Origin: Taibaiella sp.
Lineage (GTDB): Bacteria > Bacteroidota > Bacteroidia > Chitinophagales > Chitinophagaceae
Assembly: GCA_019454705.1 (NCBI GenBank)
Contig: JACFNS010000003.1
Coordinates: forward strand, 1-22,948
Direction of reading: 5' to 3'
Length of the DNA: 22,948 nucleotides
The translations under genes and the position numbers were made by a program. The stretch's first letter is position 1, and each line of letters begins with the position of its first letter. This document shows, piece by piece, positions 2,752-15,174 of the stretch. Below the pieces are notes generated by a model, which searched no databases, had not been told where the DNA came from, and saw nothing but the letters and a program-made list of their open reading frames with translations.

Positions 2752-3192
2752 TTATATCCCTAATGCCTTCAAAACAAATTTTCCTTTTTTGATATTTTCA
2801 GCTAACTCTCTTATCCTCGTATCCTGCAATACTTTTTTCAGGTTTTCCCTCACGGGTTTAAACTTGTAATGAATAGGGCAGGGCTTGGTTTCTGAGCATT
2901 GTTTCAGGCCCAGCGCACAGCCGGTAAATACGTGGTCGCCATCAATGGCATAAACTATATCAATCAAGCGGGTATCCCGCTGTTCTTCTGTAATGTAGAA
3001 ACCACCATGCACCCCTTTTTTTGAGCTGACTATATCGTGGCGGCTGAGTACCTGGAGAATCTTAGCGACAAAGTGTTGAGGAGCCTCAATGTTTTGACAA
3101 ATATCATGGATGCCGATTTTTTCTTCATTTTTATATTCTGAAGCTATATAAATCGTGGCACGTATCGCGTATTCGCAGGTCTTTGAAAACAT
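2752..3192 (-). CDS. Rrf2-family transcriptional regulator, probable Fe-S/NO sensor (NsrR-like)
   Basis: The 146-aa protein has a typical Rrf2 winged helix: MFSKTCEYAIRATIYIA at the N-terminus, then PQHFVAKILQVLSRHDIVSSKKGVHGGF (written here as a region, about residues 39-65) as recognition helix and wing. Three cysteines, C92, C99 and C105, sit where IscR, NsrR and RirA bind an Fe-S cluster; the spacing C-X6-C-X5-C is one residue longer in the first gap than the usual C-X5-C-X5-C of IscR. Length matches the family. It starts 2 bp after the hemerythrin gene ends, and the following gene starts 39 bp later behind an inverted repeat that also precedes the hemerythrin gene. Autoregulation and control of the NO-defence genes is the natural reading. 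A simple NsrR, IscR or other Rrf2 role cannot be separated by sequence alone. Confidence 0.88.
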   Translation of the reverse strand: MFSKTCEYAIRATIYIASEYKNEEKIGIHDICQNIEAPQHFVAKILQVLSRHDIVSSKKGVHGGFYITEEQRDTRLIDIVYAIDGDHVFTGCALGLKQCSETKPCPIHYKFKPVRENLKKVLQDTRIRELAENIKKGKFVLKALGI

Positions 3193-3194
3193 AG

Positions 3195-3710
3195 TTATAC
3201 TGTTCTCGCCCAGAATTCGTCTTCCCAGGCAGGTTCTTTAATATCGTTATGCAATTCAGCTATTATCTCTCCGGCACTTACCAACAGGTTGCTTGCCACG
3301 TTTTGCTCAATATATGGAAACAACTCCCTTTCTTCATACCTGATATGTTCATCAAGCTTGTCAGCAAGTTGTTCTAAAACGGTATACCCGGTTGAAGTGT
3401 TATTTTCCAACTGTGCAACCAAATTATTTATTTCCCTGTGTTCATCAAGGGCTTTTTGTATCATGCTATCCTGGGGCCCAATCAATGTAAAAACATATTC
3501 TTCTTCCTGCCTGAAATGCTCTGCCAGGTGCGACTGATAGTAGAAGACAACATACGCGGTAATCCTTTTTTCATCAATGCCGTTCTTTATGCCTGTTCGT
3601 ATTTTCCAGCACAACAAAAGCCCTGAATGGTGGTCCCGCGATAAGGGGACCAGTTCGTTACTGCGTTTTATGGGTTTCCTGTCTTCCATTTCTACAAAGA
3701 TACTATACAT
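3195..3710 (-). CDS. Hemerythrin HHE domain protein
   Basis: A protein of about 165-172 aa with a single hemerythrin-like four-helix bundle. Putative di-iron ligands are the His of SRDHHSG, H and E of HFRQEEEYVF, H of DEHREI and the H/E set of DEHIRYEERELFPYI. Such soluble di-iron proteins bind O2 or NO or act in Fe-S repair. The start is uncertain: ATG at 3710 is used here, GTG at 3713 and ATG at 3689 (MEDRKPIKRS) are alternatives, and the last begins where the conserved segment starts. It follows norB closely (26 bp), but an inverted repeat at 3717-3740 lies between them, so it may have its own regulated promoter. It ends 2 bp before rrf2. No membrane segment is present. Confidence 0.85.
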   Translation of the reverse strand: MYSIFVEMEDRKPIKRSNELVPLSRDHHSGLLLCWKIRTGIKNGIDEKRITAYVVFYYQSHLAEHFRQEEEYVFTLIGPQDSMIQKALDEHREINNLVAQLENNTSTGYTVLEQLADKLDEHIRYEERELFPYIEQNVASNLLVSAGEIIAELHNDIKEPAWEDEFWARTV

Positions 3711-3716
3711 CACTCA

Positions 3717-3740
3717 ATAAAAGACAAAAACATCTTTTAT
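3717..3740. promoter_or_regulatory. Inverted repeat ATAAAAGA-N8-TCTTTTAT, candidate Rrf2/NsrR-like operator (copy 2)
   Basis: Identical arms and the same 8-bp spacer length as the copy at 2714-2737, here overlapping the norB stop codon and lying just before the hemerythrin-rrf2 gene pair. This position suggests autoregulation by the Rrf2 protein. It is AT-rich, so it is unlikely to be a norB terminator. Confidence 0.55.
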
Positions 3741-5071
3741 TTAACATCTTTTACATTACTGTTACTATCCGACATCGACTGCCAATATTGTACTACAATA
3801 ATACCCAGCCCGATGGCCACACCTGCACCCGCTACGGCAAATAGTTTCAGTACATTATTTACCGGTTCCATCATCTGCTGAAAGCTGTTGATATTCAGCG
3901 TAACACTTCTATATCCTTTTATTATGCCGGCCAGTATAAGTGACAGCCAGAAAATAAGCAGACTGGCCTGTGCCAGGTTGTACGACCTGGTAAACAGCTT
4001 TCTGCCGGTATTTATTTTTTTGTCGATATCCAGTGCGTAACCTAATACGCCAAGTAATATCATTGTGTTGATACCTATGGTAGTGCCCATAGCATGAGCG
4101 ACCGTAATATGCGTACCATGTGTATACCGGTTGACGGCAGGTATAGACATAAACAAAGCCAGTGTGAGGTTGGCAAACACCCAAAACTCTGATGCTACAA
4201 GAAACTTGTAGGGCAACAAGTGGCGAAGTTTACGCGCTTCTTCCAGTTTGTTTTTAAAACTCTGTATTATACTGATGAATATGAGCCACTCGGTCATGCT
4301 GATGATATAGGATATATGCCTGATAGCGCCATGTGCGGGCAGGTTGTATATATGGTGCCCCCAGTTGAACATAAGATTAGTAAGCCCCAGGAAGTAAAAG
4401 AAGAATGCCTTTTTGTTGAGGGCAATTGTTTTATCGCCGCTTATCATCACCATCAGGAATAGCGAAGAGCCATATATCATCTGGTTCCAGGCGCCTACCA
4501 TAGAGCCGTTGGCTTTCCATTGCACGGTAAGTTCCCGTAAGAATGATTGCCGGAACCAGCTAATCTGCCACAGGTTTTGCTCTATGAAAGTGATAAAGAA
4601 GAATAGGATGCCTGTTGACCACATCCATATATACAAGGGCTTTTTATCCGCGCATTTCAGCCATCCTTTATAATAACCAATCATCAATAATACCCAACTC
4701 AATAACAGAGGCAGGGCCAGCCATGCCGGGAATTCCCAATATTCACGTCCACCGAATTTTTTAAAGCTATAGTATATGAAGATGACCAGTATTGTAGCTA
4801 CCCAGGTAGTGATGAATGTCTTTTCGAATATACCGGTTGTAGCGTCCCTGCCAATGGTGTTTTTGTGAAAGATGATGATACACAAGGTAGCCGCGCTAAT
4901 GATGAAGAATAATGCAGCGGAAGTATGCATGGGCCGCAACTGGTAAAAAGGCAGATACTTGTTGAATACCTCGGGGTAGAGGTAAGCCCATGAGGAAAAT
5001 AAACCGAATACCAGCGTAGCCAGCAATAGCAGGAACACGAACTTGGTATATAATCGTATGTGCAGGGGCAT
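3737..5071 (-). CDS. norB: NorB-like nitric oxide reductase catalytic subunit (non-canonical active site)
   Basis: A 444-aa membrane protein with about 12 helices, directly downstream of norC (2-bp gap), of the usual NorB length. Heme-copper features: H49 in helix II (LRPMHTSAAL), H239-H240 (FNWGHHIYNL), and H318, H321 and H326 (THGTHITVAHAMG). In canonical cNOR, NO is reduced to N2O at a heme b3/non-heme iron site using a helix VI His, a nearby Glu pair, a His-His pair, and H-x-H in helix X. Here helix VI reads QWKANGSMVGAWNQMIYG, with no His and N196-Q197 near the expected second Glu; helix X reads H326-A-M328, with Met in place of the second His. It is therefore a divergent member of the superfamily. 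NO reductase is the best call from the norC partner and the neighbours, but its reaction is not certain. Confidence 0.75.
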   Translation of the reverse strand: MPLHIRLYTKFVFLLLLATLVFGLFSSWAYLYPEVFNKYLPFYQLRPMHTSAALFFIISAATLCIIIFHKNTIGRDATTGIFEKTFITTWVATILVIFIYYSFKKFGGREYWEFPAWLALPLLLSWVLLMIGYYKGWLKCADKKPLYIWMWSTGILFFFITFIEQNLWQISWFRQSFLRELTVQWKANGSMVGAWNQMIYGSSLFLMVMISGDKTIALNKKAFFFYFLGLTNLMFNWGHHIYNLPAHGAIRHISYIISMTEWLIFISIIQSFKNKLEEARKLRHLLPYKFLVASEFWVFANLTLALFMSIPAVNRYTHGTHITVAHAMGTTIGINTMILLGVLGYALDIDKKINTGRKLFTRSYNLAQASLLIFWLSLILAGIIKGYRSVTLNINSFQQMMEPVNNVLKLFAVAGAGVAIGLGIIVVQYWQSMSDSNSNVKDVK

Positions 5072-5073
5072 GT

Positions 5074-5481
5074 TTATTTATCTATAATGTAGGTTCCTGA
5101 CCAATGGACAGCTTCCGCTGGTACCTGCGATACACCGCTTTTGTCCACCCACTCCAGGAAGTCTATAATGCGGTACACTTCATCGTCTGTCATATTAAAC
5201 GCAGGCATTCTGCCCGTACCGTGTTTTATAAATGTGTACATGTATGGTTTGCCTTTAGTGCTGTCCCGGGCAATGTTCGTAAGGTCGGGCCCCATGTAGC
5301 CGCCCAGTCCGTATAGCTGATGGCAACTCTGGCAGTTGTTTTGCTGCCACAGGTTCCAGCCTTCTGTTACAGCAGGATGAATATTTTCGGTGGTTTTTGC
5401 TTCCTCATCGCAATACAGGTACACCCAACCCGTGTATAGGCAAAACGACGTAAATAATATTCCCCAGACCAGTCTTAACAT
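5074..5481 (-). CDS. norC: NorC-like membrane-anchored c-type cytochrome
   Basis: A 135-aa protein: one N-terminal membrane helix (about residues 3-23, no cleavage needed), then a single cytochrome c domain facing the periplasm. It has a C50-Q-S-C53-H54 heme-binding motif and a likely axial Met (M93 in GRMPAFN). The segment YGLGGYMGPDLTN is typical of NorC. It would pass electrons to NorB. The ATG at 5481 is preceded by an FNR-like site centred 57.5 bp upstream and by a -7-like element. The gene heads the norCB transcript and overlaps nothing upstream. Family assignment is good; the electron partner follows from the 2-bp spacing to norB. Confidence 0.9.
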   Translation of the reverse strand: MLRLVWGILFTSFCLYTGWVYLYCDEEAKTTENIHPAVTEGWNLWQQNNCQSCHQLYGLGGYMGPDLTNIARDSTKGKPYMYTFIKHGTGRMPAFNMTDDEVYRIIDFLEWVDKSGVSQVPAEAVHWSGTYIIDK

Positions 5482-5501
5482 TCCTGTAACATGTAAGGCT
5501 G

Positions 5502-5545
5502 TAAAAATATAAATGCCAATTGCCTTAAAAGATGATAATCATCAT
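5502..5545 (-). promoter_or_regulatory. norC promoter: FNR-like site (5532-5545) plus -7-like element (5509-5502)
   Basis: The palindrome ATGAT-AATC-ATCAT (plus-strand reading) at 5532-5545 matches the Crp/Fnr-type layout TTGAT-N4-ATCAA in its inner bases. Its centre (5538.5) is 29.5 bp upstream of the first base of TATTTTTA (5509-5502, minus strand), which is TAnnTTTG with one mismatch. The inferred start is near 5497, placing the site near -41.5. The same spacing is found at four other promoters in this window. Confidence 0.65.
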
Positions 5546-5568
5546 GTTTGATGTTGACAAGGCGCATG

Positions 5569-7347
5569 TTAGTTATTAGCAACAGGTATCAATACAGCCT
5601 GTAGTTCTTTTTCGGCAATGCATAAATCATTTTGCATGGATTGAATAAACTGTTGCGCCAGCTTTTGATAGTATGTAATGCCTTCCTGCAGGTTCGCTTT
5701 GAATGAATTAAGGTATTTGCTCCGTTTTGCGTTCAGGTTTATTTCACTTGCAGCATCTTTCAGGTAGGTGATATATAACTGCAGTTCGTTTACAAACATA
5801 TGAGGACGGGGCAACGTGTTCAAGATATTCTTTCTGCCATAAATATGTCCCACCATTTCAGTTAGCGAAAAAATGCCGGAAAAATAGGCCAGGTTAGGCC
5901 CCGGGCATATGGTTACAGCATTCAGGTTATGCGGAACGGGTATCTCTTCTTTGAGCAAAGCAGGTGCCGTCAACCCTTCGCACAGGCAGTCTTTTTCTAT
6001 TATTTTATTATACTCAGTATTGTATTGTTCGTCCGGAAGGTCTTGTTCCTTCAGTTGTTTTATTTTCAGATGTTGGTACAGGCGCGATGCTGTGCAGATG
6101 GGTTCTGCCGTAAACTCGGTGTTGGACACCAGCATTTTTTTGTAACAGGGGCTGCCCGGCCTGCCTTTGTCAATACGTTCTTGCCGTTGTCGTTCGGCGG
6201 TACTTTTCCTGAAATTGTTGAAAGGGACTCCCAACGGCGATGCATGGCTGAGGTAATAATCGTCTTTTTCAGCAGTAGCCAGTTGTCCTATTGTTTGTTC
6301 ATCTACGCTGGTGGCTTCCGGCACCAGCAGGAAAGGGCTGCCCCAACCCGTACGGTCCAGGTGGTAATGTTTTATGAGGAATTCCTGTTCTTCAGCTGTG
6401 CCTATACCCCCCTGTACCGTTATTTTTAACCCGGGACATTCAGTAAAGGCTGCTATGCCCTTATTGTGTTGACTTTGGAGGCAGAGTTCATATAGCTCTG
6501 CTGTAAGTGAATTACGGTTGATTTTAAATTCCTCGAGTATGGGGCCCAGCAAGAGGCCATCAGTAGCAAAGGCATGCCCGCCACAATTCAGGCCCGATTC
6601 GATTCTGAATTCTGATACCCAGATACCTTTTTTTGCCAGTATTTTTCCCTGTACCAGGGCGGAGCGATAGTCACTCACTTTCAATATCACTTTCTTTCTG
6701 AGCTTTCCCTCCTCGTTGGGGAAGAAATCTTTAAACTGCTCGAGATATGCATACAGCCTTGGGTTATAACCTGCCGAGATAATAACTGATGATGTGAGCT
6801 TGCTATTGGCAAACCCCCGCAGCGCTGCCAATGCGTCAGAAAACTCCTGTGCAAGGGGTTGCCCGCTTTTATCGTGGTTCAGCTTATCGACCTTGGCCAT
6901 GATGTTTACATCTATACTACCGGGTGTCACGGCATTTCTCAGTTCTTCTTCAATACGGAGCCGATGTGCCTGGTCATGTATTTGTGGTAGTTGCCTGTAC
7001 TTTTGTTTTAAAGCTGAGTCTTCAGGCAATAGTTCAAAATATTTATCCAGCTCGCTATTCTCACCAAATGATTGTTCTTTCAGCCGTGCAATCTGCAAGG
7101 TGACAATATCATGGATGACATCCAGGTAAGCGGTTATTCGCCTGGCCCTTGCGTCGTGCTCCTGTTTTTCAATGGGTTTGTAAATAATGCCATTGTTCCG
7201 GCAATGATGCTCCCGCATTAATTCCAGCAGTTCATCGTCCATGATGGACATTACCGATGAAATTCCAAATTGTGCAACCTTTACAGGTGTATCTATTGAG
7301 TACCCCAGTCCCAATACCGGGATATGAAATGTATGTAGTTCAGACAT
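5569..7347 (-). CDS. Uncharacterised conserved-looking cysteine-rich protein, possibly TIM-barrel flavoenzyme-like
   Basis: A 592-aa soluble protein without signal peptide or membrane helix. The N-terminus (HIPVLGLGYSIDTPVKVAQ) and later segments ESGLNCGGHAFATDG (residues 250-264), VQGGIGTAEEQ (311-321) and GWGSPFLLVPEAT (334-346) recall nitronate-monooxygenase/2-nitropropane-dioxygenase-like FMN TIM barrels. This resemblance is weak and is inference only. Cysteines cluster in the C-terminal half: C401, C418, C454-L-C456 (DCLCEGL) and C481 (CPGPN). They could bind a metal or Fe-S cluster. The last 70 residues are predicted helical. It has its own promoter with an FNR-like site at 7415-7428, is divergent from the thioesterase operon, and ends 87 bp before norC on the same strand, so it probably belongs to the same low-oxygen or NO response. 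I do not recognise a characterised homologue. Confidence 0.7.
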   Translation of the reverse strand: MSELHTFHIPVLGLGYSIDTPVKVAQFGISSVMSIMDDELLELMREHHCRNNGIIYKPIEKQEHDARARRITAYLDVIHDIVTLQIARLKEQSFGENSELDKYFELLPEDSALKQKYRQLPQIHDQAHRLRIEEELRNAVTPGSIDVNIMAKVDKLNHDKSGQPLAQEFSDALAALRGFANSKLTSSVIISAGYNPRLYAYLEQFKDFFPNEEGKLRKKVILKVSDYRSALVQGKILAKKGIWVSEFRIESGLNCGGHAFATDGLLLGPILEEFKINRNSLTAELYELCLQSQHNKGIAAFTECPGLKITVQGGIGTAEEQEFLIKHYHLDRTGWGSPFLLVPEATSVDEQTIGQLATAEKDDYYLSHASPLGVPFNNFRKSTAERQRQERIDKGRPGSPCYKKMLVSNTEFTAEPICTASRLYQHLKIKQLKEQDLPDEQYNTEYNKIIEKDCLCEGLTAPALLKEEIPVPHNLNAVTICPGPNLAYFSGIFSLTEMVGHIYGRKNILNTLPRPHMFVNELQLYITYLKDAASEINLNAKRSKYLNSFKANLQEGITYYQKLAQQFIQSMQNDLCIAEKELQAVLIPVANN

Positions 7348-7384
7348 AATTATGTAGAGATATTAAATGCGATAAGGCGGGTAG

Positions 7385-7428
7385 CAAAGTTGGCTTTATT
7401 TATCTGCCTTCATAATGATTATTATCAT
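7385..7428 (-). promoter_or_regulatory. Promoter of the 592-aa gene: FNR-like site (7415-7428) plus -7-like element (7392-7385)
   Basis: ATGAT-TATT-ATCAT at 7415-7428 is a perfect 5-bp palindrome with 4-bp spacer. Its centre (7421.5) lies exactly 29.5 bp before the first base of CAACTTTG (7392-7385, minus strand), one mismatch from TAnnTTTG. The predicted start is near 7380, giving a leader of about 33 nt to the ATG at 7347. Confidence 0.7.
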
Positions 7429-7454
7429 CTTTCTGTTTTTTAGTTGCTTAAAAC

Positions 7455-7498
7455 ATGATACTTGTCATAGAGCCGCAATTTATTTTGCCGCAACTTTA
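7455..7498 (+). promoter_or_regulatory. Thioesterase operon promoter: FNR-like site (7455-7468) plus -7-like element (7491-7498)
   Basis: ATGAT-ACTT-GTCAT at 7455-7468 is centred at 7461.5, again 29.5 bp before a -7-like element, CAACTTTA (7491-7498). The same octamer at the same distance is found before the peroxidase gene. The site overlaps an upstream in-frame ATG (7455), which argues that translation starts at 7518 instead. Confidence 0.65.
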
Positions 7499-7517
7499 CA
7501 GCCACTTTTGCATTGCT

Positions 7518-8000
7518 ATGTTTAAACAGAAGCAAATAACAGAGAAGCCACCATCGGCATCAGAAACCATTATGACTGAAGTGGTGTATCCTAATGATGC
7601 GAACCCTATGGGGATGTTGCAGGGGGGCAGATTGGTGCAGTGGATGGACACTGCATCGGCCATATGCGCCCAAACGCATGCTGGCAGAATTGCCGTTACT
7701 GCGTCGATTGACAAAGTAGAATTTAAAAATCCTGCCAAGGTGGGGGATATTATATCTATAAATGCCAAAGTCACACGTTCATTCGACAAGTCGATGGAAA
7801 TACATGTAAGGGCATGGTCGAGGAAAGTGTTGAGCGGCGAAATTTACCCCATCAGCGATGCATATTTCATTTTTGTGGCGCTGGATGATAATGCTAATCC
7901 CGCATTGGTACCGAAGCTGAAGCCGGCAAGTGCCGAAGAAAAATCAAATTATAAAGATGCGTTGTCCAGAAGAAATAGCAGGGTTTATAAAAGCAAATAA
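7518..8000 (+). CDS. Acyl-CoA thioesterase, hotdog fold (YciA/BACH type)
   Basis: A 160-aa cytoplasmic protein with a single hotdog domain. The segment NPMGMLQGGRLVQWMDTASAI (about residues 29-49) carries the N..G...GG...WMD signature of acyl-CoA hydrolases, with N29 and D44 as probable catalytic residues; the usual HGG or FGG is QGG here. ASIDKVEFKNPAKVGDII follows as the typical second strand-turn. It hydrolyses acyl-CoA to free acid and CoA. The start at ATG 7518 is preferred over 7455 because the latter lies inside the FNR-like operator and upstream of the -7 element. It is the first gene of a three-gene operon; the next gene starts 44 bp before its stop. The substrate cannot be told from sequence. 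Confidence 0.88.
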   Translation: MFKQKQITEKPPSASETIMTEVVYPNDANPMGMLQGGRLVQWMDTASAICAQTHAGRIAVTASIDKVEFKNPAKVGDIISINAKVTRSFDKSMEIHVRAWSRKVLSGEIYPISDAYFIFVALDDNANPALVPKLKPASAEEKSNYKDALSRRNSRVYKSK

Positions 8001-8385
8001 GGTAGCTACCATATGTTATGTGAAAGATGGATTGCCTGAATGTTTCAATTGTTTATATGCCTGTATGCCCGATGGAGAAGGCATAGTTTTCAAGTCATCC
8101 CTGTCCTCTTTGCACAGCCCCGTTTTGCAACCGGAAGTTCCTGTTGCCGGCACCATTTACCGTTCTACGGAAAGCGGCCTGGATAATTCAGGTATCCAGT
8201 TTCATGGTAATATTGTGACAGGCTGGGCGTTAAGGGAAATGGCTCAAAAAGCATATTACAAACGCTACCCGCTGGGGTTAGTGGTTCCCGGCGATTTATT
8301 TGTTGTCTTGTTTGATAACCTTAAGTACACAAAAACAATCAAAGGTATCAGGAAGAAACAACAGTGGGAGAGAGTAATGAATTAA
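7957..8385 (+). CDS. Pyridoxamine 5'-phosphate oxidase-like (PPOX split-barrel) protein
   Basis: A 142-aa protein starting with MRCPEEIAGFIKANKVATIC, followed by a six-stranded split-barrel pattern: GEGIVFKSS, LHSPVLQ, VAGTIYRS, IQFHGNIV and PGDLFVVLFDNLKYTKT. It resembles small flavin-binding PPOX-like or YhbP-type proteins, in which segments like LHSPVLQ and VAGTI follow the first beta hairpin. It may bind FMN or a related cofactor; no reaction can be assigned. The ATG at 7957 lies inside the thioesterase gene (44-bp overlap in a different frame); an earlier ATG at 7930 would add nine residues outside the recognisable domain. The overlap implies translational coupling. It is followed after 5 bp by queD. 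Confidence 0.78.
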   Translation: MRCPEEIAGFIKANKVATICYVKDGLPECFNCLYACMPDGEGIVFKSSLSSLHSPVLQPEVPVAGTIYRSTESGLDNSGIQFHGNIVTGWALREMAQKAYYKRYPLGLVVPGDLFVVLFDNLKYTKTIKGIRKKQQWERVMN

Positions 8386-8390
8386 ATATT

Positions 8391-8753
8391 ATGTATTCCG
8401 CAACGATATTTAAAGAACTGACATTTGATGCTGCACATTTTTTGCCCAACGTACCCGAAGGGCATAAGTGCAGAAATATACATGGCCACACTTACAGGTT
8501 AAAGGTGTATATAAATGGGCCGATAGATGAACATACGGGTTGGGTAGCTGATTTCGCAGAATTGAAGAAATCTGTAAAGTCAGTAGTGGAAGAAGTGGAC
8601 CATAAGTTCCTCAATAATATTGATGGTTTGGACAATCCTACCTGTGAGCTGCTGGCGCGCTGGTTGTGGCAAAAAATAAAGCCCCTGGTGCCGGGGCTTA
8701 GTAAAATTGAACTGCATGAAACGCCAACGTCCGGCGTTGTGTACCAGGAGTAA
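8391..8753 (+). CDS. queD: 6-carboxy-5,6,7,8-tetrahydropterin synthase / 6-pyruvoyl-tetrahydropterin synthase family
   Basis: A 120-aa protein of the PTPS/QueD family, of normal length. Zinc ligands H16 (FDAAHFLP), H31 and H33 (NIHGHTY); catalytic C27 in GHKCRNIHGH; D70-H71 in EEVDHKFLN; E110 in ELHETPTSG. QueD converts 7,8-dihydroneopterin triphosphate to 6-carboxytetrahydropterin in the queuosine/preQ0 pathway. The C27-x3-H31-x-H33 arrangement fits QueD. ATG 8391 was chosen because the sequence MYSATIFKELTFDAAH aligns with the usual start; ATG 8364 lies inside the preceding gene and adds nine atypical residues. It is the third gene of the thioesterase operon. Its last 80 bases also form a strong terminator for the opposite strand. 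Confidence 0.9.
   Translation: MYSATIFKELTFDAAHFLPNVPEGHKCRNIHGHTYRLKVYINGPIDEHTGWVADFAELKKSVKSVVEEVDHKFLNNIDGLDNPTCELLARWLWQKIKPLVPGLSKIELHETPTSGVVYQE
8671..8699 (-). terminator. Rho-independent terminator of the minus-strand lipoprotein operon, inside queD
   Basis: Read on the minus strand: AAGCCCC, a 7-nt loop GGCACCA, GGGGCTT, then TATTTTTTG. The 7-bp GC-rich stem plus T-tract is a convincing intrinsic terminator for the convergent operon whose last stop codon is at 8762. It is embedded in queD codons for residues around KPLVPGLS, so it does not interrupt plus-strand transcription (no T-tract in that direction). Confidence 0.8.
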
Positions 8754-8761
8754 TGAAGTTG

Positions 8762-9169
8762 TTACTGTGCTTTGAATGCGATGGCTTTATCAGCAGTAGC
8801 TCCGTCATGGTCTATAACAGCTGATACTACTACCTGCAAGTCGCCCGGGGTACCCTGGTTGTTTACCCATTGCTCACTTACCATCATTTCTTTGCCGTGC
8901 ATATGTTGTGCTTTGGTAAACAACGTGTCCGCGTTGTTCCTGATGATATACACACTGCAACCATGCATTTCCGTAGCACAGGTTACAAAAGCCTTTACAA
9001 ATACAGTATCTCCGGCACTGAATAGCTGGTTTTCGTACGGAGTATTGATGGTTATTTTCGCAGTTTCGTGATGTGATGTAGCCTGTGGTAATGTGTCTGC
9101 TTTTTTGCAGGAGAATAGTAAAGTGCTGAGCGCTAAGACCGGCACTGCAATAGTCATTGACCGTTTCAT
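8762..9169 (-). CDS. Small His/Met-containing lipoprotein, possibly metal-related
   Basis: A 135-aa protein with a lipoprotein signal (LSTLLFSC, lipidated Cys at about 21, followed by KK). The mature part is one predicted beta-sandwich domain: ITINTPYENQLFSAGDTVFVKA resembles an Ig-like or DUF4625-like start. It is rich in histidine and methionine around HH (34-35), TCATEMHGCS, KAQHMHGKEMM and IDHDG, plus two cysteines (TC..GC). These residues suggest copper or other metal binding, but this is inference. It follows the CNVCGC outer-membrane gene by 10 bp in one transcript and ends at a terminator inside queD. No characterised homologue is recognised. Confidence 0.75.
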   Translation of the reverse strand: MKRSMTIAVPVLALSTLLFSCKKADTLPQATSHHETAKITINTPYENQLFSAGDTVFVKAFVTCATEMHGCSVYIIRNNADTLFTKAQHMHGKEMMVSEQWVNNQGTPGDLQVVVSAVIDHDGATADKAIAFKAQ

Positions 9170-9179
9170 CTTTATATGT

Positions 9180-10094
9180 TTAGAATAATAAGTAAATACC
9201 TAGTTCGGTTTTATACCTGTTTGTTACCATTCCACCGGAATAGTTTTGGGAGAGCGGAATATGCAGCATAGCTTGCGCACCCACATTATTTCGGAATGCC
9301 TGTAACCCTGCTGAGGCCAGCACCATGTTACCCCCGCTGTAGCTGTTTTTTACTGAGTAGTAGTAATTGCTGTAATCCACCTCGTTTCTTTCGTACCTGC
9401 CACCGGCCTGTGGTATGAGTTTAAGCTGTCCGGCTGTAAAAGTGTGGAAGCCCAGCAATCCTGCGCTCAGCCTGTTGCCAAATTTGTATTCGTCTTTGTT
9501 AGGGGTAGTGATTACATACGCAATATCAGCGTTTATGCCGGTGTTGTTGTGTTGCAGGGTATAGTTAGTATTGAGTATAAAATCGAAGGAAGCTGTGCCC
9601 GGCTGAATGTTGGGTAACCCTTCGTTGTATTTTATGTCGTTCCTGTCGTATTTGCCTGTGGGTAATTTTACGCCGCCGCCCGCCAGCAGGTTATGCTGCC
9701 ATTCTTTACCGGTACAGTTGGCGCCCAGCAGCCTGTAGTTAGCCAGCAAAGTAATATCACCTAATCCCGTATTTCTTGAGTAAGAGCCGTTTTCTATCCT
9801 TTCGTTATATACATAAGGGACAAAAGCAAACAATTGCACGTTGCGCACAGGGTTGTACCTGCCCCAAAGCTGCATGGTATGGTAATAATCTTTTGATGTT
9901 TCCGGGTCAACACCTTCTATGGTTTCGTGTACGCCGCGATACTCCCTGTATTGATATTGTACACCCGCAAAACTGTTTTTTGAATTGGGGAGGATACCCA
10001 GGTATTGGTTGCTGGCTGAGCAACCACACACGTTGCAGGCATTGGCGTTATATATTCCGGATATGAATGTCGCAAGCAGGATGAGCTTTTTCAT
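9180..10094 (-). CDS. Outer-membrane beta-barrel-like protein with N-terminal CNVCGC motif
   Basis: A 304-aa protein with a signal peptide (MKKLILLATFISGIYNANA) followed at once by C20-N-V-C23-G-C25-SASNQYLGILP. The rest alternates aromatic and polar residues in repeated amphipathic strands (for example VQYQYREYRG, LFAFVPYVYN, TELGIYLLF) and ends in F, as in outer-membrane beta-barrels. Similar proteins in Bacteroidota are often labelled transporter and lie near MbnP and cytochrome c peroxidase genes; that association is from memory. The CxxCxC motif could bind metal. It is divergent from the peroxidase gene. Its promoter has a perfect TAnnTTTG box only 5 bp from the ATG, with an inverted repeat just upstream. 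Cargo or ligand is unknown; a copper link is inferred from neighbours. Confidence 0.72.
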   Translation of the reverse strand: MKKLILLATFISGIYNANACNVCGCSASNQYLGILPNSKNSFAGVQYQYREYRGVHETIEGVDPETSKDYYHTMQLWGRYNPVRNVQLFAFVPYVYNERIENGSYSRNTGLGDITLLANYRLLGANCTGKEWQHNLLAGGGVKLPTGKYDRNDIKYNEGLPNIQPGTASFDFILNTNYTLQHNNTGINADIAYVITTPNKDEYKFGNRLSAGLLGFHTFTAGQLKLIPQAGGRYERNEVDYSNYYYSVKNSYSGGNMVLASAGLQAFRNNVGAQAMLHIPLSQNYSGGMVTNRYKTELGIYLLF

Positions 10095-10098
10095 AATG

Positions 10099-10139
10099 CA
10101 AACCTATTTCCCTTAATAAAGGATTAAAATGTCTTTTAT
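10099..10139 (-). promoter_or_regulatory. Promoter of the CNVCGC operon: -7 box (10106-10099) and inverted repeat (10116-10139), operator copy 3
   Basis: TAGGTTTG on the minus strand (10106-10099) is a perfect match to TAnnTTTG. Upstream of it, ATAAAGGA-N8-TCTTTTAT (10116-10139) has the same arm and spacer lengths as the copies at 2714 and 3717, with one base different. It covers the region between -33 and -7, as expected of a repressor operator. The start of transcription would fall at or next to the ATG (10094), suggesting a leaderless mRNA. Confidence 0.6.
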
Positions 10140-10150
10140 CAGCCCGGCAG

Positions 10151-10194
10151 GTGACTTTTGTCATATACCATCCGGGGTTTTAAAAACAACTTTA
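10151..10194 (+). promoter_or_regulatory. Peroxidase operon promoter: FNR-like site (10151-10164) plus -7-like element (10187-10194)
   Basis: GTGAC-TTTT-GTCAT at 10151-10164 (TGAC/GTCA perfect palindrome, 4-bp spacer) is centred at 10157.5. The octamer CAACTTTA begins at 10187, exactly 29.5 bp downstream. Predicted start is near 10199, leaving a short leader to the ATG at 10212. Confidence 0.68.
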
Positions 10195-10211
10195 CATAAC
10201 AAGCAAACGAT

Positions 10212-11264
10212 ATGCGAACAAGCCGAAAAATATTGCATGGTTTAGCAGTGGTGGCTACATGCATTGTACTCGCAGTTTCCTGCAAAAAGGAATCAACACC
10301 ACCCACCGTTACCCCGCAGGACACTACCTACAAATTAACCCCTTACGAAATAGTGATGCCGGCGCATTTTCCTGAAATGTATATTCCGGAAGACAATAAG
10401 CCATACGTAGAAAGAATTGAATTGGGCCGTATGTTGTACTACGACAATATATTGTCGAACGATGGCAGGGCTTGTGCAAGCTGCCACTTCCAGTCGCATG
10501 GGTTTACTATTCCCGGCATGGTGAATGATATGCCTGTCCTCTCTCATGTTAACCTGGCATGGCATGGAAAGTTTATGTGGGATGGCTCAAAGAGTGGTAC
10601 ACTTGAGGATGTGATGTTGTTTGAGACACAAGAGTTCTTCGCTACCAACCTGGAGAAAATAAATAGTAGCGAGAAATACAGGAAGTTGTTCAAGCAGTAT
10701 TTCGGGGTAGATTATATTACCCATCATGAAATTGCATACGCACTGGCACAGTTTACCCGTACAATGATTTCAAAAGACTCGAAGTATGACAGGTATATGA
10801 AAGGTGCTGAAAGACTGACCTATAACGAGGAGATGGGCATGAGGATATTTTTCTCAGAGAAGGGTGATTGTTTCCACTGTCACACCGCGATGATTACTAC
10901 AGATGGGCAAATGCACAATACCGGCCTGGATAGTGTATACACTAAGGAAATGGACAAAGGGTATTATAATGTTACTAAAAACACGAGTGACCTGGGAAAA
11001 TTCAGAACACCTAACCTGCGGAATGTAGCCCTGCGCAAATTCTATATGCACGATGGCAGGTTCACAACGCTGGAAGAAGTAGTGGAGTTTTATAATAGTG
11101 GGGTAAATAGGGTAAGCAATATAGACCCGATAATGACCAAGGAGGGAAAGGAAAACGGATTGAACCTGAACGCGGTTGAAAAGCAGCAATTGGTTGCGTT
11201 TCTCAAAACCCTTACTGACGAAACATTTATTACTGATACAAGCTTCAGCAAACCTTCATTTTAA
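10212..11264 (+). CDS. Di-heme cytochrome c peroxidase / MauG-MbnH-like lipoprotein
   Basis: A 350-aa lipoprotein (lipobox AVSC, Cys 24) with two c-type heme sites: C88-A-S-C91-H92 and C220-F-H-C223-H224. Family signatures include LGRMLYYDNILSNDG, NLAWHGKFMWDGS (116-126), KFRTPNLRNVALRKFYMHDGRF (about 263-283) and a C-terminal LVAFLKTLTDE. It is periplasmic and membrane-anchored. Classical members reduce H2O2; MauG/MbnH members oxidise residues in a partner protein. The next gene encodes an MbnP-like protein, so an MbnH-type role, oxidising a Trp in its partner to help form a copper site, is plausible. That is inference from pairing. Its FNR-like promoter site suggests low-oxygen or NO control, as for many bacterial peroxidases. 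Length is normal for the family. Confidence 0.9.
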   Translation: MRTSRKILHGLAVVATCIVLAVSCKKESTPPTVTPQDTTYKLTPYEIVMPAHFPEMYIPEDNKPYVERIELGRMLYYDNILSNDGRACASCHFQSHGFTIPGMVNDMPVLSHVNLAWHGKFMWDGSKSGTLEDVMLFETQEFFATNLEKINSSEKYRKLFKQYFGVDYITHHEIAYALAQFTRTMISKDSKYDRYMKGAERLTYNEEMGMRIFFSEKGDCFHCHTAMITTDGQMHNTGLDSVYTKEMDKGYYNVTKNTSDLGKFRTPNLRNVALRKFYMHDGRFTTLEEVVEFYNSGVNRVSNIDPIMTKEGKENGLNLNAVEKQQLVAFLKTLTDETFITDTSFSKPSF

Positions 11265-11284
11265 TAATAATCTCAGCTAACAAT

Positions 11285-12016
11285 ATGAATATGAAATATG
11301 TATTAACAGGGGTGATGTTAGCTGCAATGGCTTTTACATCTTGTCGTAAGGAGAAAGAAAATGTAATTCCTGCACCCCTTACGGGCAACCTGGCTGTTAA
11401 TGTGGATTATCATGTGGATGGGAAGCAGCTCTATTTTGACAGCCTGATATACACCAATGCTGCAGGTAACCAATATAGCGTCACAAAGGTACATTACTAC
11501 CTCAGCAGGTTCAGGCTGTATAAAGAGGGCAGCGTGAAATATGCATCAGACACAATAATTTATGTAGACGCAGAGAAGGCTATGAATTTTTCATTCAGGA
11601 ACGTTCCGGCGATGACATACGACTCTATGTCCTTTCATATAGGATTGGACGAGGCGCAAAATAAATCCAATTCATTGCCCGCTACAGCCGAAAACGTGAA
11701 TATGGGCTGGCCTGATGTGATGGGTGGAGGCTACCACTTCCTGAAGTTGGAAGGGCACTGGTTGGACAGCAGTAAGAAGTTGGGTTATGCCATGCATATA
11801 GGTAATAACGGGTTTTTAGTTCGTGCAGGGGCAAAGGCCAATATTGAGGTGAACGGTGGTAAAACTGCAAACTGTAAACTGATGATGAATATTAACGAAT
11901 GGTTTGCCCACCCCAATACCTACAACCTGGCTGCGGATGGTGTGTATAGCATGGGTAACGCACCACTGATGAAGAAACTCAGTGAGAATGGTGGTGATGT
12001 TTTCGGTTTAGAGTAA
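11285..12016 (+). CDS. MbnP-family copper-binding-like lipoprotein
   Basis: A 243-aa protein with lipobox FTSC (Cys 20) followed by RK. The mature protein fits the MbnP/CorA-like family: an N-terminal LAVNVDYHVDGKQLYFD strand pair, TKVHYYLSRFRLY, then MSFHIGLDEAQN, the characteristic NMGWPDVMGGGYHFLKLEG (residues 139-157) and a final MNINEWF. Tryptophans W142, W159 and W206 and histidines H70, H118, H151, H158 and H171 are candidates for the modified Trp and copper ligands. In studied pairs a di-heme MbnH enzyme converts an MbnP Trp to kynurenine for copper binding. It lies 20 bp after the di-heme enzyme gene, so the two form one operon. An alternative ATG six bases downstream exists. Copper binding here is inferred from family. 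Confidence 0.82.
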   Translation: MNMKYVLTGVMLAAMAFTSCRKEKENVIPAPLTGNLAVNVDYHVDGKQLYFDSLIYTNAAGNQYSVTKVHYYLSRFRLYKEGSVKYASDTIIYVDAEKAMNFSFRNVPAMTYDSMSFHIGLDEAQNKSNSLPATAENVNMGWPDVMGGGYHFLKLEGHWLDSSKKLGYAMHIGNNGFLVRAGAKANIEVNGGKTANCKLMMNINEWFAHPNTYNLAADGVYSMGNAPLMKKLSENGGDVFGLE

Positions 12017-12190
12017 TTTTTAATGCGATAACTCTCGGCTAAAATTTTACTAAATGTATTTATAAATGATTGTCTTAAATATTCATATGACATATGCATC
12101 ATGAGCTTTTGATTTTTTCTGACATTAGTACCACAACTATTAAACATTCCGTAGTTTACTTAGTCAGAGATAATATAAAGAACGTGTTAT

Positions 12191-12475
12191 ATGAAACAGT
12201 ACATTTCAATGCTAGTCATTATACTGGCAATTAACAACCCCGATACTACAATTGCACAACAAAAAGGACGCGGTAAGAATATTGACCCGGATAAAGTGTT
12301 TGAGAAACTGGACACTGATAAGGACGGGAAAATAAACAAAGAAGAAGTTGAGAAAGCTGATCGTCCCCGCCTGAAAGAAAATTTCTCAAAGATTGATGCC
12401 GATAGTGATGGCTTTATCAGCAAGGAGGAATTCAAAAGGATGGTAGAAAAACGCAGGGAAGCTACAGGTAATTAA
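12191..12475 (+). CDS. Small secreted EF-hand protein
   Basis: A 94-aa protein with an N-terminal hydrophobic signal (residues about 4-22, ending IAQQ) and two classical EF-hand loops: DTDKDGKINKEE (about residues 41-52) and DADSDGFISKEE (about 69-80). Both have Asp at loop positions 1, 3 and 5, Gly at 6, Ile at 8 and Glu at 12, so calcium binding is likely. The mature protein is highly charged and Lys-rich. It lies 174 bp downstream of the MbnP-like gene; that gap holds no gene and no clear terminator, so it may have its own promoter. Role unknown; periplasmic or outer-surface calcium binding is inferred. Confidence 0.85.
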   Translation: MKQYISMLVIILAINNPDTTIAQQKGRGKNIDPDKVFEKLDTDKDGKINKEEVEKADRPRLKENFSKIDADSDGFISKEEFKRMVEKRREATGN

Positions 12476-12500
12476 TAAACATCAAGGTTTATGTAAAAGA

Positions 12501-12534
12501 AAGGCGTTTCAGCCAGGTAAAACTGAAACGCCTT
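12501..12534 (-). terminator. Intrinsic terminator hairpin between the EF-hand gene and paaD (likely bidirectional)
   Basis: A perfect 12-bp stem, AAGGCGTTTCAG / CTGAAACGCCTT, with a 10-nt loop, sits between the convergent EF-hand gene and paaD. On the minus strand it is followed by TCTTTTAC, a modest T-tract, so it best serves the paa operon. The plus-strand side lacks a clear T-tract. Confidence 0.75.
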
Positions 12535-12569
12535 GATACCTCACTATCCACCTTAGAAAAACTATCTTA

Positions 12570-13055
12570 TCAATGGCATTTGAAATATTCAAATGGTTCC
12601 TTGCAATCATTGCATTTGTATAATGCTTTGCAAGCCGTTGAGCCAAACCTGCTGATTTGCACTGTATGGCTGCTGCCGCATTGCGGACAGCATATATGGG
12701 CTTCAGCATGAGCTACATCACAGCCTGAATGTACAGGTGGCGCAATGCCATATTTTTTCATTTTTTCTTTAGCTGCATCGGTAATGTTATCTGTCGTCCA
12801 TGCCGGTTGGTACACCAGCTTTACAGTAGCGTTAATGCCATGCTTATCCAGCAGTGCTTTTATGTCTGCTTCTATAATACCCATAGCAGGACAGCCTGTA
12901 TAGGTTGGGGTAATAATCACTTCACAACCATTGTCGGTCATGCGCACATCCTGCAGCATGCCTATTTCCTCTATGGTCACTACAGGTATTTCGGGGTCTG
13001 CTATCTGCGATAACAGTTCTAATATATTTTCCCTTGTATGGACCGTACTTACCAT
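12570..13055 (-). CDS. paaD: Phenylacetyl-CoA epoxidase maturation subunit PaaD
   Basis: A 161-aa protein with an N-terminal MIP18/DUF59 domain (D20-P-E-I-P24, then TYTGCPAMG with C55) and a C-terminal zinc-ribbon-like part (C123-P-Q-C126 and C148-N-D-C151, plus FGSTACKALYKC). PaaD is needed for assembly or activity of the phenylacetyl-CoA 1,2-epoxidase and is thought to act in Fe-S insertion, probably for PaaE. It overlaps the end of paaC by 7 bp and is the last gene before a terminator hairpin. No paaE follows it, so the reductase must be encoded elsewhere. Length and both domains are typical. Confidence 0.93.
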   Translation of the reverse strand: MVSTVHTRENILELLSQIADPEIPVVTIEEIGMLQDVRMTDNGCEVIITPTYTGCPAMGIIEADIKALLDKHGINATVKLVYQPAWTTDNITDAAKEKMKKYGIAPPVHSGCDVAHAEAHICCPQCGSSHTVQISRFGSTACKALYKCNDCKEPFEYFKCH

Positions 13056-13810
13056 TTCGCGTCAGGATAGGCCCTTTGTAAGTATTGCATTTCGCCCAGC
13101 ATGTGGCCAAGGTGTTCGGTATGTACACCTTTTCTGCCACCAGTTTGCATATAGTTGGCCGCAGGCAGGCTCAGCTTCGCTTCTTCCAGCACGTTTTTGA
13201 TATGTGTTTCCCACAGCGAATGAAGAGATGGGTTATCTACTCCTAAACCTTGAGCAATCAAGGCGGTATCTGTTTCATCTGCTTCAAACAATTCGCCTGT
13301 GTACATCCACAGGTTGTTTATCGCCTGTTGCATTTTCTCATGGCTTTCTTCCGTGCCATCGCCCAGCCTTACTGTCCAGTCTGCCGCATGTGCCATATGG
13401 TATTTTACCTCTTTCAATGTTTTGGCAGCCAGCGCAGCAAAGGTTTCGTCCTTGCTGTTTTGCAGCGACATAAAGAAATAGTATTCGTAAACAGACATAT
13501 ACAACTGCCGGGCTATCGTATCGGCAAAGTTGCCGTTGGGCATTTCCACCAGCAGATTATTATAATACTGTCTTTCGTTACGCCTGTAAGCAAGGTCGTC
13601 TGCTGTCCTGCCTTTGCCCTCCAGTTCAGCTGCATAATTGTAAAATGCCTGCGCCCTTCCTATCAGGTCAAGTGCTATATTGGTCAGCGCCAGGTCTTCT
13701 TCCAGGAATGGACCGTTGCTGCACCATTCAGACAGCCTGTGCGATAGTATCCAGGCATTATCTGCCATCCTCAGGCTGTAAGTATATTTTAGTTCATGAA
13801 TGTTTGCCAT
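13049..13810 (-). CDS. paaC: Phenylacetyl-CoA epoxidase structural subunit PaaC
   Basis: A 253-aa all-helical ferritin-like protein. Family markers are the N-terminal MADNAWILSHRLSEWCSNGP, then LEEDLALTNIALDLIGRAQ (about residues 36-54), RNERQYYNNLLVEMPNGNF, and EVKYHMAHAADWTVRLGDGTEES written here as the region at about residues 134-156. PaaC is the structural partner of the catalytic PaaA in the multicomponent oxygenase that converts phenylacetyl-CoA to its ring-1,2-epoxide. It lies between paaB (2-bp gap) and paaD (7-bp overlap), the standard paaABCD order, which indicates tight co-translation. Confidence 0.95.
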   Translation of the reverse strand: MANIHELKYTYSLRMADNAWILSHRLSEWCSNGPFLEEDLALTNIALDLIGRAQAFYNYAAELEGKGRTADDLAYRRNERQYYNNLLVEMPNGNFADTIARQLYMSVYEYYFFMSLQNSKDETFAALAAKTLKEVKYHMAHAADWTVRLGDGTEESHEKMQQAINNLWMYTGELFEADETDTALIAQGLGVDNPSLHSLWETHIKNVLEEAKLSLPAANYMQTGGRKGVHTEHLGHMLGEMQYLQRAYPDAKW

Positions 13811-13812
13811 TG

Positions 13813-14103
13813 CTAAATTTGTTTTGCGCCTTCGGGCATCACATAAAATGTAGGGTGGCGGTACACCTTATCATCAGCAGGGTCGAAGAACATATCAGCA
13901 TCATCGGGGTTGGATGCCACGATGGAGTTGGCGGGTACTACCCATATACTGCTACCTTCGCCACGGCGGGTATATATATCCCTGGCGTTCTGCAATGCCA
14001 TCTTCTTGTCCGACGCATGTACACTGCCGGCATGCATATGGTGGCTGCCATTCCTGCCCTGGATAAATACTTCCCACAAGTCCAGTTGTGTATCTGTAGC
14101 CAT
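13813..14103 (-). CDS. paaB: Phenylacetyl-CoA epoxidase subunit PaaB
   Basis: A 96-aa protein of the usual PaaB size, with WEVFIQGRNGSHHMHAGSVHA near the N-terminus and ALQNARDIYTRRGEGSSIWVV in the middle, both family hallmarks. PaaB bridges PaaAC heterodimers in the epoxidase complex. It starts 25 bp after the paaA stop and ends 2 bp before paaC. Cytoplasmic, no membrane segment. Confidence 0.95.
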   Translation of the reverse strand: MATDTQLDLWEVFIQGRNGSHHMHAGSVHASDKKMALQNARDIYTRRGEGSSIWVVPANSIVASNPDDADMFFDPADDKVYRHPTFYVMPEGAKQI

Positions 14104-14128
14104 TGTATTCTGTTTTTGCTTGTTTGAA

Positions 14129-15085
14129 TTAATTGTTTTTCACAGCTTGTTTTACTTTATAGGCCTCTGCTGCCGCTCTTACCCATGCACCGTCATTATG
14201 CGCTTTTTTGTGGTGGGCTATACGTTGCTTATTGCATTGTCCGTTGCCTTGTATAACGCGATAGAATTCATCCCAGTTTATTTCACCGTGGTCGTAATGC
14301 CCGGTTGCCTCATTCCATTTTAGTTCGGGGTCGGGAATGGTCAGTCCGATTACTTCCGCCTGCTGCACCGTTTTGTCAATAAACTTGGTACGCAGTTCAT
14401 CATTACTATGCCTTTTTATCTTCCACCTGAATGCATCTGATGAATGCGGTGAATCACTATCGTGCGGGCCAAACATCATTAGTGATGGCCACCACCACCT
14501 GTTCATGGCATCCTGCGCCATTTCGCGTTGCTCGGGAGTGCCTTTCATCATCATTGCCATTATCTCGTAGCCCTGCCGCTGGTGAAAGCTTTCTTCTTTG
14601 CAGATACGTACCATCGCCCTGCTGTAAGGGCCATAGGAAGTGCGCTGCAACGATACCTGGTTCACAATAGCAGCACCATCAACCAGCCAACCTATTGCGC
14701 CAATGTCAGCCCATGTAAGCGTGGGGTAGTTAAATATGTTGGAATATTTCGCCTTGCCAGTCTGCAACTGTTCTATCATCTCTTCTCGCGAAATGCCCAG
14801 TGTTTCCGCGGCGCTGTACAGGTACAATCCGTGCCCGCCTTCATCCTGTATTTTGGCCAGCAGTATCTGCTTCGCCCTGATGCTAGGTGCACGTGTTATC
14901 CAGTTGCCTTCTGGCTGCATACCTATCACTTCAGAATGTGCGTGCTGCGATATCTGGCGGATGAGGTGTTTCCTGTATGCTTCCGGCATCCAGTCACGAG
15001 GTTCTATAGCATCACCTTTTTGTACTCTTTCTTCAAACTTTGATAACCGTGCGTCTTCAATAGCCGGTGCTGTATTACTGCTCAT
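14129..15085 (-). CDS. paaA: Phenylacetyl-CoA 1,2-epoxidase catalytic subunit PaaA
   Basis: A 318-aa di-iron oxygenase subunit (E. coli PaaA is 309 aa). Iron-ligand motifs are visible: E82 and H85 in [13 protein letters not shown], and E164/E165 with H168 in [12 protein letters not shown]. The C-terminal part ([20 protein letters not shown]) is typical. It uses O2 to epoxidise phenylacetyl-CoA and can also reverse the reaction. The start at 15085 ([10 protein letters not shown]) is preferred over ATG 15121: the 12 extra residues look unlike the family, and a -7-like element at 15116-15109 would lie inside them. It heads paaABCD. Upstream lie two FNR-like sites, one at the activator position. 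Confidence 0.93.
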
Positions 15086-15108
15086 GTTTGTGAGTATTGT
15101 CTTAATGC

Positions 15109-15174
15109 CAATACTACACAACCGGTTTTTGCTACTGCATGACTTTCATCATACCGCATGATGATTATTCTCAT
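15109..15174 (-). promoter_or_regulatory. paaA promoter with two FNR-like sites (15139-15152, 15161-15174) and -7-like element (15116-15109)
   Basis: Proximal site ATGAC-TTTC-ATCAT is centred at 15145.5, 29.5 bp before TAGTATTG (15116-15109, minus strand; one mismatch to TAnnTTTG). Distal site ATGAT-TATT-CTCAT is centred 22 bp further upstream, about two helical turns. The predicted start is near 15104. Two sites at one promoter are unique in this window. Confidence 0.65.

Follow-up and report, generated by a model that had tools for sequence, protein, structure and literature searches.

In the FixLJ-FixK systems of Proteobacteria, FixJ, which combines a receiver with a LuxR-type helix-turn-helix (HTH), and FixK are encoded by separate genes. 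The CRP protein of Escherichia coli binds as one dimer at -41.5 in class II promoters and, in other promoters, about two helical turns upstream, at -61.5. Here, we describe a putative operator of the CRP/FNR type in a stretch of 22,948 nucleotides from Taibaiella sp. (hereafter, the window), which is contig C148 of a metagenome-assembled genome (MAG) of 2.92 Mb in 522 contigs, 87.5% complete. The operator precedes norC of a nitric oxide (NO) reductase, a gene for an uncharacterised protein of 592 amino acids (aa), a thioesterase operon, a gene for an MbnH-like di-haem peroxidase, and paaA of phenylacetyl-CoA epoxidase. We think it quite probable that an FNR/FixK-type activator uses these sites as operators at sigma-A promoters of Bacteroidota, and that in this lineage they are read, most likely, by a response regulator whose receiver is fused to a CRP domain (receiver-CRP).

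The candidate system resembles FixLJ-FixK and FNR in its FixL-type haem-PAS kinase, its CRP/FNR-type activator, its TGA-N6-TCA operators, its cbb3 oxidase and assembly genes as targets, and its class II position at -41.5. It differs from FixLJ-FixK in that receiver and CRP domains occur in one protein (a separate FixJ was not searched for in these genomes), and from both FixLJ-FixK and FNR in the frequent tandem pair at -63.5 and -41.5 and in the -7 box of Bacteroidota. The FNR box TTGAT-N4-ATCAA is not matched either, as the outer base is here A, G, or C: a T was found there at 21 of 240 half-site ends in relatives of the 592-aa locus and at 2 of 52 in a sample of MAG sites. E. coli CRP shares the class II position and has an upstream one about two turns away, but here the latter is -63.5 and both are often filled in a single promoter. 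The DNR, NnrR, and HcpR regulators are alike in that the CRP/FNR family controls nor or hcp genes, and the CRP-like HcpR motif wTGTGA-N6-TCACAw overlaps the G variant of our operator. The other motifs given in the available part of that source, CTTGATnnnnATCAAG, ctTTGcgnnnncgCAAag, wyTTGACnnnnGTCAArw, and GTAACnnnnGTTAC, differ from it, and none is the A-type ATGAY-N4-RTCAT of the window (PMC1274295). The literature we reached says little on oxygen control in aerobic Bacteroidota, and in the accessible literature, which included few subscription journals, we found no account of the operator, the tandem spacing, or the receiver-CRP regulator.

A preliminary description of the window proposed five 14-mers of the form (A/G)TGA(T/C)-N4-(A/G)TCAT (the strict motif), each centred 29.5 bp from a -7-type octamer. 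All five 14-mers are present, and the distance is exact in the five cases and directed toward each named gene. The octamer is also found at all five, but its definition (YAnnnTTR) was loose: scored on the six positions of TAnnTTTG, the element CAACTTTA of the thioesterase and peroxidase promoters has 4 matches and the other three elements have 5. In the available part of PMC9723704, the TAnnTTTG box of Flavobacterium psychrophilum sigma-A promoters spans -12 to -5. A centre 29.5 bp from such a box is therefore exactly at -41.5 and one at 51.5 bp is at -63.5; we infer all +1 positions given below from this spacing. The window has 5 distinct strict sites (9 oriented matches), against a mean of 0.40 and a maximum of 3 in shuffled sequences, and the motif followed by N22 and YAnnnTTR occurs 5 times, against a mean of 0.003 and a maximum of 1 in 300 dinucleotide shuffles.

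Strict sites cluster, since 5 of their 34 distinct places in the MAG fall within these 23 kb out of 2.92 Mb. Ten of the 53 oriented matches (3 in the window) have an octamer of at least 5/6 at 29.5 bp, and no other offset has more than 3. Outside the window, this spacing occurs at 7 of the 25 oriented sites that are not in genes and at none of the 19 within genes (sites located right where an open frame begins were scored as outside). The seven targets are an EGF-like lipoprotein, homogentisate dioxygenase, acetyl-CoA hydrolase/transferase, a small lipoprotein, a fasciclin-like lipoprotein, a persulfide dioxygenase-rhodanese, and a Na/Pi-transporter-like protein, some of them named by eye (the labels Na/Pi-transporter-like, NosZ-like, TauE-like, HemN-like, and FixI/FixH were all given in this way, without a family search). 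Clustering and spacing, not bare frequency, are the notable features of these sites. The broad motif VTGAY-N4-RTCAB (VTGAYNNNNRTCAB) is barely more frequent in the MAG than its reversed control (87+87 vs 68+68 oriented matches). A partial sample of 128 oriented sites (100 of the 174 oriented matches, plus some sites merely within fetched stretches) has at least 15 at 29.5 and at least 8 at 51.5, with a mean of 1.46 per offset; 4 of the 8 at 51.5 are within a gene or have no gene found downstream. Additional targets in this sample are a peroxiredoxin, a ribosome-hibernation-type S30AE protein, and a second MbnP, and a Usp protein lies downstream of a site at 30.5.

The same geometry is found in relatives. 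Scanning genome contigs with the 592-aa protein gave 141 relatives, and we kept the best 80 of the 141 loci, where related species are not fully independent. The core TGA-N6-TCA is present within 260 bp of the gene start in 65 of the 80 loci, whereas spacers of 2-5 and 7-11 occur in 2-9 loci each. The distance from these sites to the best -7 box is bimodal (29.5, n=21; 51.5, n=18; next 71.5, n=5). Hence, the single fixed spacing initially proposed holds for the five window sites, but 51.5 bp is a second exact value in relatives. All gene upstreams of the 80 loci and the window have 159 sites: 51.5 accounts for 58 and 29.5 for 36, where an offset has 3.07 on average. When all sites of the 80 loci are taken, wherever they lie (278 oriented), the figures are 61 and 36, the next highest offset having 11 and the median being 2. 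Six control motifs, with 44-64 sites each in these loci, had 0-4 at 29.5 and none at 51.5. The 51.5 and 29.5 promoters form 54 and 31 clusters at 75% identity, so they are not a few near-identical copies. A site was found in all 11 upstreams of CcoNO (genes by Pfam), 10 at 51.5 and 1 at 50.5, as well as before 9 of 11 dehydrogenase, 6 of 10 metal-ATPase, and 17 of 224 unclustered genes; it precedes none of the 4-5 members each of gene families 14, 20, 21, 22, and 23. The putative operator and its spacing are supported as well as sequence permits. The earlier suggestion of a class II Crp/Fnr-type activator near -41.5 is supported too, since the geometry recurs in the genome, was not seen at sites within genes, and is kept in relatives. 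Separately, a flavoprotein gene in locus L023 has the -7-like element TAGCTTGC at 51.5 by eye, with a score below 5/6.

Often the two distances belong to one element, in which two operators are spaced 22 bp apart. Of 61 promoters of the 51.5 type, 48 have a second core (at least 4/6 of TGA..TCA) at a distance of exactly 22 bp downstream; among 36 of the 29.5 type, 19 have one at the same distance upstream, over a background of about 5%; shifts of 21 or 23 bp give 0-3%, and 3 promoters are common to both sets. In the broad-motif sample of the MAG, the second core is found in 6 of 8 (51.5) and 6 of 15 (29.5) cases. The window has tandem pairs at norC, MbnH, and paaA, and the MbnH pair also fits, in reversed order, the divergent gene for a 304-aa protein. 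The list of five promoters stands in full, but it missed the second operators 22 bp upstream (norC, MbnH, and paaA) and this sixth promoter. A single pair may drive two divergent promoters symmetrically.

This layout bears on whether the sites could be repressor sites, or chance palindromes beside promoters, with no activator involved. A protein bound at -41.5 overlaps the -33 region and could block the polymerase. However, two exact distances, a TTG around -33 that is nearly absent (0-6%) from the operator promoters of relatives, and weak -7 boxes at the 29.5 promoters are what activators need, and the tandem spacing on one face of the helix likewise fits activators. We regard this explanation as very improbable, and a chance origin is ruled out by the shuffles and by the control motifs in relatives.

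The neighbourhood of the 592-aa gene points to a candidate activator. In 23 of the 80 loci, mostly from Pedobacter, the next two genes in the row encode a PAS histidine kinase and a response regulator of the receiver-CRP type. Overall, the 80 loci contain 37 kinases of this family (two with another N-terminus) and 35 receiver-CRP proteins, with radical SAM (HemN-like), D-2-hydroxyacid dehydrogenase, and cbb3 genes as neighbours. The receiver-CRP proteins of L113 and L179 match PF00027 and PF13545 above cut-off, plus Response_reg. The PAS domain of one Pedobacter kinase matches FixL (1dp6) at E=8e-32, with the FixL HD motif aligned, and this motif is present in 32 of the 37 kinases, three others running off the locus end. 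The recognition helix is ETVSR or ETISR in all 35 receiver-CRP proteins, with equivalents (by eye) of the Glu-181 and Arg-185 used for reading TGA.

We searched 147 genomes of the family for receiver-CRP, scoring at most 14 candidates per genome. Matches at 1e-28 or better were found in 125 genomes. The best match is 6e-65 or better in 107 of them (one cut by a contig end) and only 4e-31 to 6e-40 in the other 18, as expected for a CRP part without a receiver (checked in detail in G155); 22 genomes, the MAG included, had no match. The gene is present in the near relative G001 and, twice, in the complete congener G069. Receiver-less FNR-like proteins were found in G155, G002, G003, G011, and G017. 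Those of G002, G003, and G155 lie next to genes that we took for cbb3-assembly genes; a CxxC-x8-C cluster is seen in them (L249, L180, and L181) only when a non-ATG start is assumed, and the protein of G017 (L148) has CxxC. The two types of protein look complementary across genomes, but G039 carries both a receiver-CRP protein and a relative that lacks the receiver. The congeners G069 and G155 have further Crp/Fnr-type proteins (L250, L253, L258), one with CSTCNLC near its N-terminus.

From these observations we infer a mode of binding, activation, and signalling. A dimer would bind VTGAY-N4-RTCAB at -41.5 and make a class II contact, or bind at -63.5, two helix turns upstream, in a class I-like manner, or occupy both positions, which then form a tandem pair on one DNA face with a 22-bp spacing, and would draw RNA polymerase to a -7 box that is itself weak. 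The activator of this lineage would combine a receiver domain with a CRP/FNR domain in one protein and be paired with a PAS histidine kinase, which in Sphingobacteriaceae has a PAS of the FixL haem type. This PAS makes low oxygen (or another gas) the probable signal. Where relatives lack the fusion, its place seems to be filled by a stand-alone FNR-like protein. F. psychrophilum raises its cbb3 oxidase under oxygen limitation, according to the available part of PMC9723704.

Within the MAG, the search for a regulator returned one Crp-HTH protein, a 210-aa Crp-type protein on contig C401, which is a poorer fit than the receiver-CRP fusion of relatives. It is the sole PF13545 match in the MAG and adjoins 29.5-spaced sites before the persulfide dioxygenase-rhodanese and TauE-like genes, and one could suppose that it reads all sites. 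It has an Arg at the CRP-180 position (assigned by eye), a residue that goes with G at site position 3 in the available part of PMC1274295. Beside this protein and its relatives, G is the outer base of 22 of 26 half-sites. The 592-aa loci have it at 67 of 240 (Fisher p 2e-8), and the remaining sites of the MAG sample at 6 of 52. Moreover, G069 keeps the paaA pair, and a PF13545 search found there no SSREVISR helix, only a distant relative with SSRVVISR, while in the genomes of L073, L106, L113, and L116 the 592-aa gene is preceded by the palindrome and there is no close match to the C401 protein. That it reads all sites is improbable, and we rejected it as reader of the window sites on its outer-base preference and the search of the congener. 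It more likely reads a sister operator, GTGAC-N4-GTCAC, at sulfur genes, because the sites near it are G-rich at the outer base. Four other PF00027 proteins of the MAG have no more than a short HTH-like end. In L029 (3981-5782), a Crp-type protein has persulfide dioxygenase-rhodanese and TauE-like genes as neighbours, and G-type sites occur there at 29.5; this would be a sister sulfur regulon of different specificity.

Another possibility is that a NO-responsive regulator akin to DNR, NnrR, or HcpR controls the window genes, the signal being NO rather than oxygen. The window holds norCB, hemerythrins, and a ScdA-like gene, and two relatives have a Crp-type regulator by NosZ-like genes with ATGAT-N4-ATCAT or ATGAC-N4-GTCAT sites adjoining. 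Yet strong matches to this nos-linked regulator were found in only 3 of the 20 genomes searched (G004, G007, and G018, the query's own included), a scarcity at odds with an operator present in most 592-aa loci. The targets include cbb3 oxidase and lactate dehydrogenase-like genes, as is typical of a microaerobic regulon, and the rrf2 gene of the norCB operon could itself provide NO control. We find this explanation unlikely, and the nos-linked L147-type regulator was rejected as general reader on its few strong matches. In L147 and L149, the Crp-type regulator is located between NosZ-like/cytochrome genes and a protein that resembles, by eye, the 433-aa membrane protein of the window.

A low-oxygen regulon read by receiver-CRP also has several results against it. 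The strict motif is not enriched across the whole MAG: its 53 oriented matches (26+27) compare with 31+35 for the reversed pattern. TGA-N6-TCA is absent before the 592-aa gene in 15 of the 80 loci (in 6 of them the gene follows a cco cluster in the same direction), and by the stricter VTGAY-N4-RTCAB the site is present in 52 of 80. In the tandem scan of the window promoters, the 592-aa and thioesterase promoters lacked a -63.5 partner. The regulatory genes have their own sites before 7 of 34 kinase, 0 of 24 receiver-CRP, and 0 of 5 HemN-like genes; autoregulation is thus not a general feature. No receiver-CRP gene turned up in the MAG, an 87.5% complete assembly in which 26 of 26 candidates were scored, and the congener G155 keeps the paaA pair without a full receiver-CRP match. 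The receiver-CRP helix of G001 and G069 is KESVIR (TESLIR in the second copy of G069) and not ETVSR, and the PAS of the G069 kinase is a weaker FixL match (4e-13), which makes its haem uncertain. Finally, 113 of the 147 family genomes have a PaaA match, and among the 30 loci fetched (window included) the pair occurs in 4: the window, both congeners found (G069 and G155), and G024. Among the 7 loci with PaaA more than 80% identical, 4 (the window included) have the pair, 1 has a single site at 29.5, and 2 have no site of this geometry; the 23 less identical ones have one site at 29.5 and one at 30.5.

Weighing these points, we lean slightly towards the broader view that many aerobic Bacteroidota share a low-oxygen regulon. 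It would use the -63.5/-41.5 operator pair, one pair being able to serve divergent promoters; a haem-PAS kinase and a receiver-CRP protein would collapse FixL-FixJ-FixK into two proteins; and some lineages would have swapped this sensor for an FNR-like protein having a cysteine cluster at its N-terminus while keeping the operators. The preliminary description had joined the five genes into one regulon through a single operator; this grouping is drawn from sequence only, and the operator is often a tandem pair and not always single. Genes for NO, copper, phenylacetate, and unknown functions are probably joined in one low-oxygen network. The element gives exact predictions of start sites, and the list of its targets, now with NO reductase, cbb3 oxidase, MbnP/MbnH, a second paa operon, a ribosome-hibernation-type factor, and the widespread 592-aa protein, can be extended by computer. 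It also offers a natural test case for comparing class I with class II activation of the Bacteroidota polymerase, which is unusual.

At norC (5074..5481, minus strand, Pfam), the proximal operator ATGATGATTATCAT (5532..5545, minus) has the motif and spacing and is centred at -41.5, the distal one ATGCGCCTTGTCAA (5554..5567, minus; 5/6 core bases) is centred at -63.5, and the -7 element TATTTTTA (5502..5509, minus) predicts a +1 at 5497. The names norC and norB come from domains (Pfam) and gene order. The series continues with norB (3737-5071), a hemerythrin (3195-3713), and Rrf2 (2752-3192), then a 433-aa gene (1411-2712) and ScdA/DUF2249/hemerythrin (495-1418), all by Pfam. The site upstream of norC recurs in L040 (29.5) and L043 (51.5).

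The 592-aa gene (5569..7347, minus) has the operator ATGATAATAATCAT (7415..7428, minus) centred at -41.5 and the -7 element CAACTTTG (7385..7392, minus), with a predicted +1 at 7380. Its operator lies 40 bp from that of the thioesterase operon, ATGATACTTGTCAT (7455..7468, plus; centre -41.5), a 14-mer found identically in L040. The thioesterase -7 element (7491..7498, plus) predicts a +1 at 7503. This operon (7455..8753, plus) encodes a 4HBT thioesterase, a YhbP-like protein (under the NCBIfam cut-off), and PTPS/QueD. The true start of the thioesterase is likely the in-frame ATG at 7518, because the listed ATG at 7455 falls in the operator. The 592-aa protein has no Pfam or NCBIfam match, and a profile of its family searched against PDB gave weak apolipoprotein matches only (E 0.04 or worse), with no convincing relative. 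The family has at least 8000 relatives, which among the matches listed are named 'hypothetical' or 'Uncharacterized protein', and many residues are invariant across 33 aligned sequences. The named relatives are Bacteroidota, with 'Bacteroidetes bacterium UBA5543' (81%) and a Chitinophagaceae bacterium (64%) nearest.

The MbnH-like di-haem peroxidase (under the NCBIfam cut-off, above the Pfam CCP_MauG cut-off) and MbnP are encoded at 10212..12016 (plus), and the 304-aa protein, without a Pfam match, at 9180..10094 (minus). The operator at 10151..10164 (plus) is proximal (-41.5) for MbnH and distal (-63.5) for the 304-aa gene, whereas CTGATAAAAGACAT (10129..10142, minus; 5/6 core bases) is proximal for the 304-aa gene and distal for MbnH. 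The MbnH -7 element (10187..10194, plus) predicts a +1 at 10199. On the other side, the element TAGGTTTG (10099..10106, minus), 29.5 bp from the 10129 site, predicts a +1 at 10094, which is the A of the gene's own ATG and would make the transcript leaderless. Predicted +1 positions at or adjoining an ATG were also observed in L073, L099, L106, L111, and L115, where transcripts are probably leaderless.

The paaABCD operon for phenylacetyl-CoA epoxidase (12570..15085, minus, Pfam) is preceded by the proximal operator ATGATGAAAGTCAT (15139..15152, minus; -41.5), the distal operator ATGAGAATAATCAT (15161..15174, minus; -63.5; 6/6 core bases), and the -7 element TAGTATTG (15109..15116, minus), with a predicted +1 at 15104. 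A second paaA in the MAG (G000:C252:1885-2781) is 69% identical. Two paaA copies are thus found in the MAG, G069, and G155, and the copy of the window, which carries the operator pair, possibly belongs to a low-oxygen isoform set.

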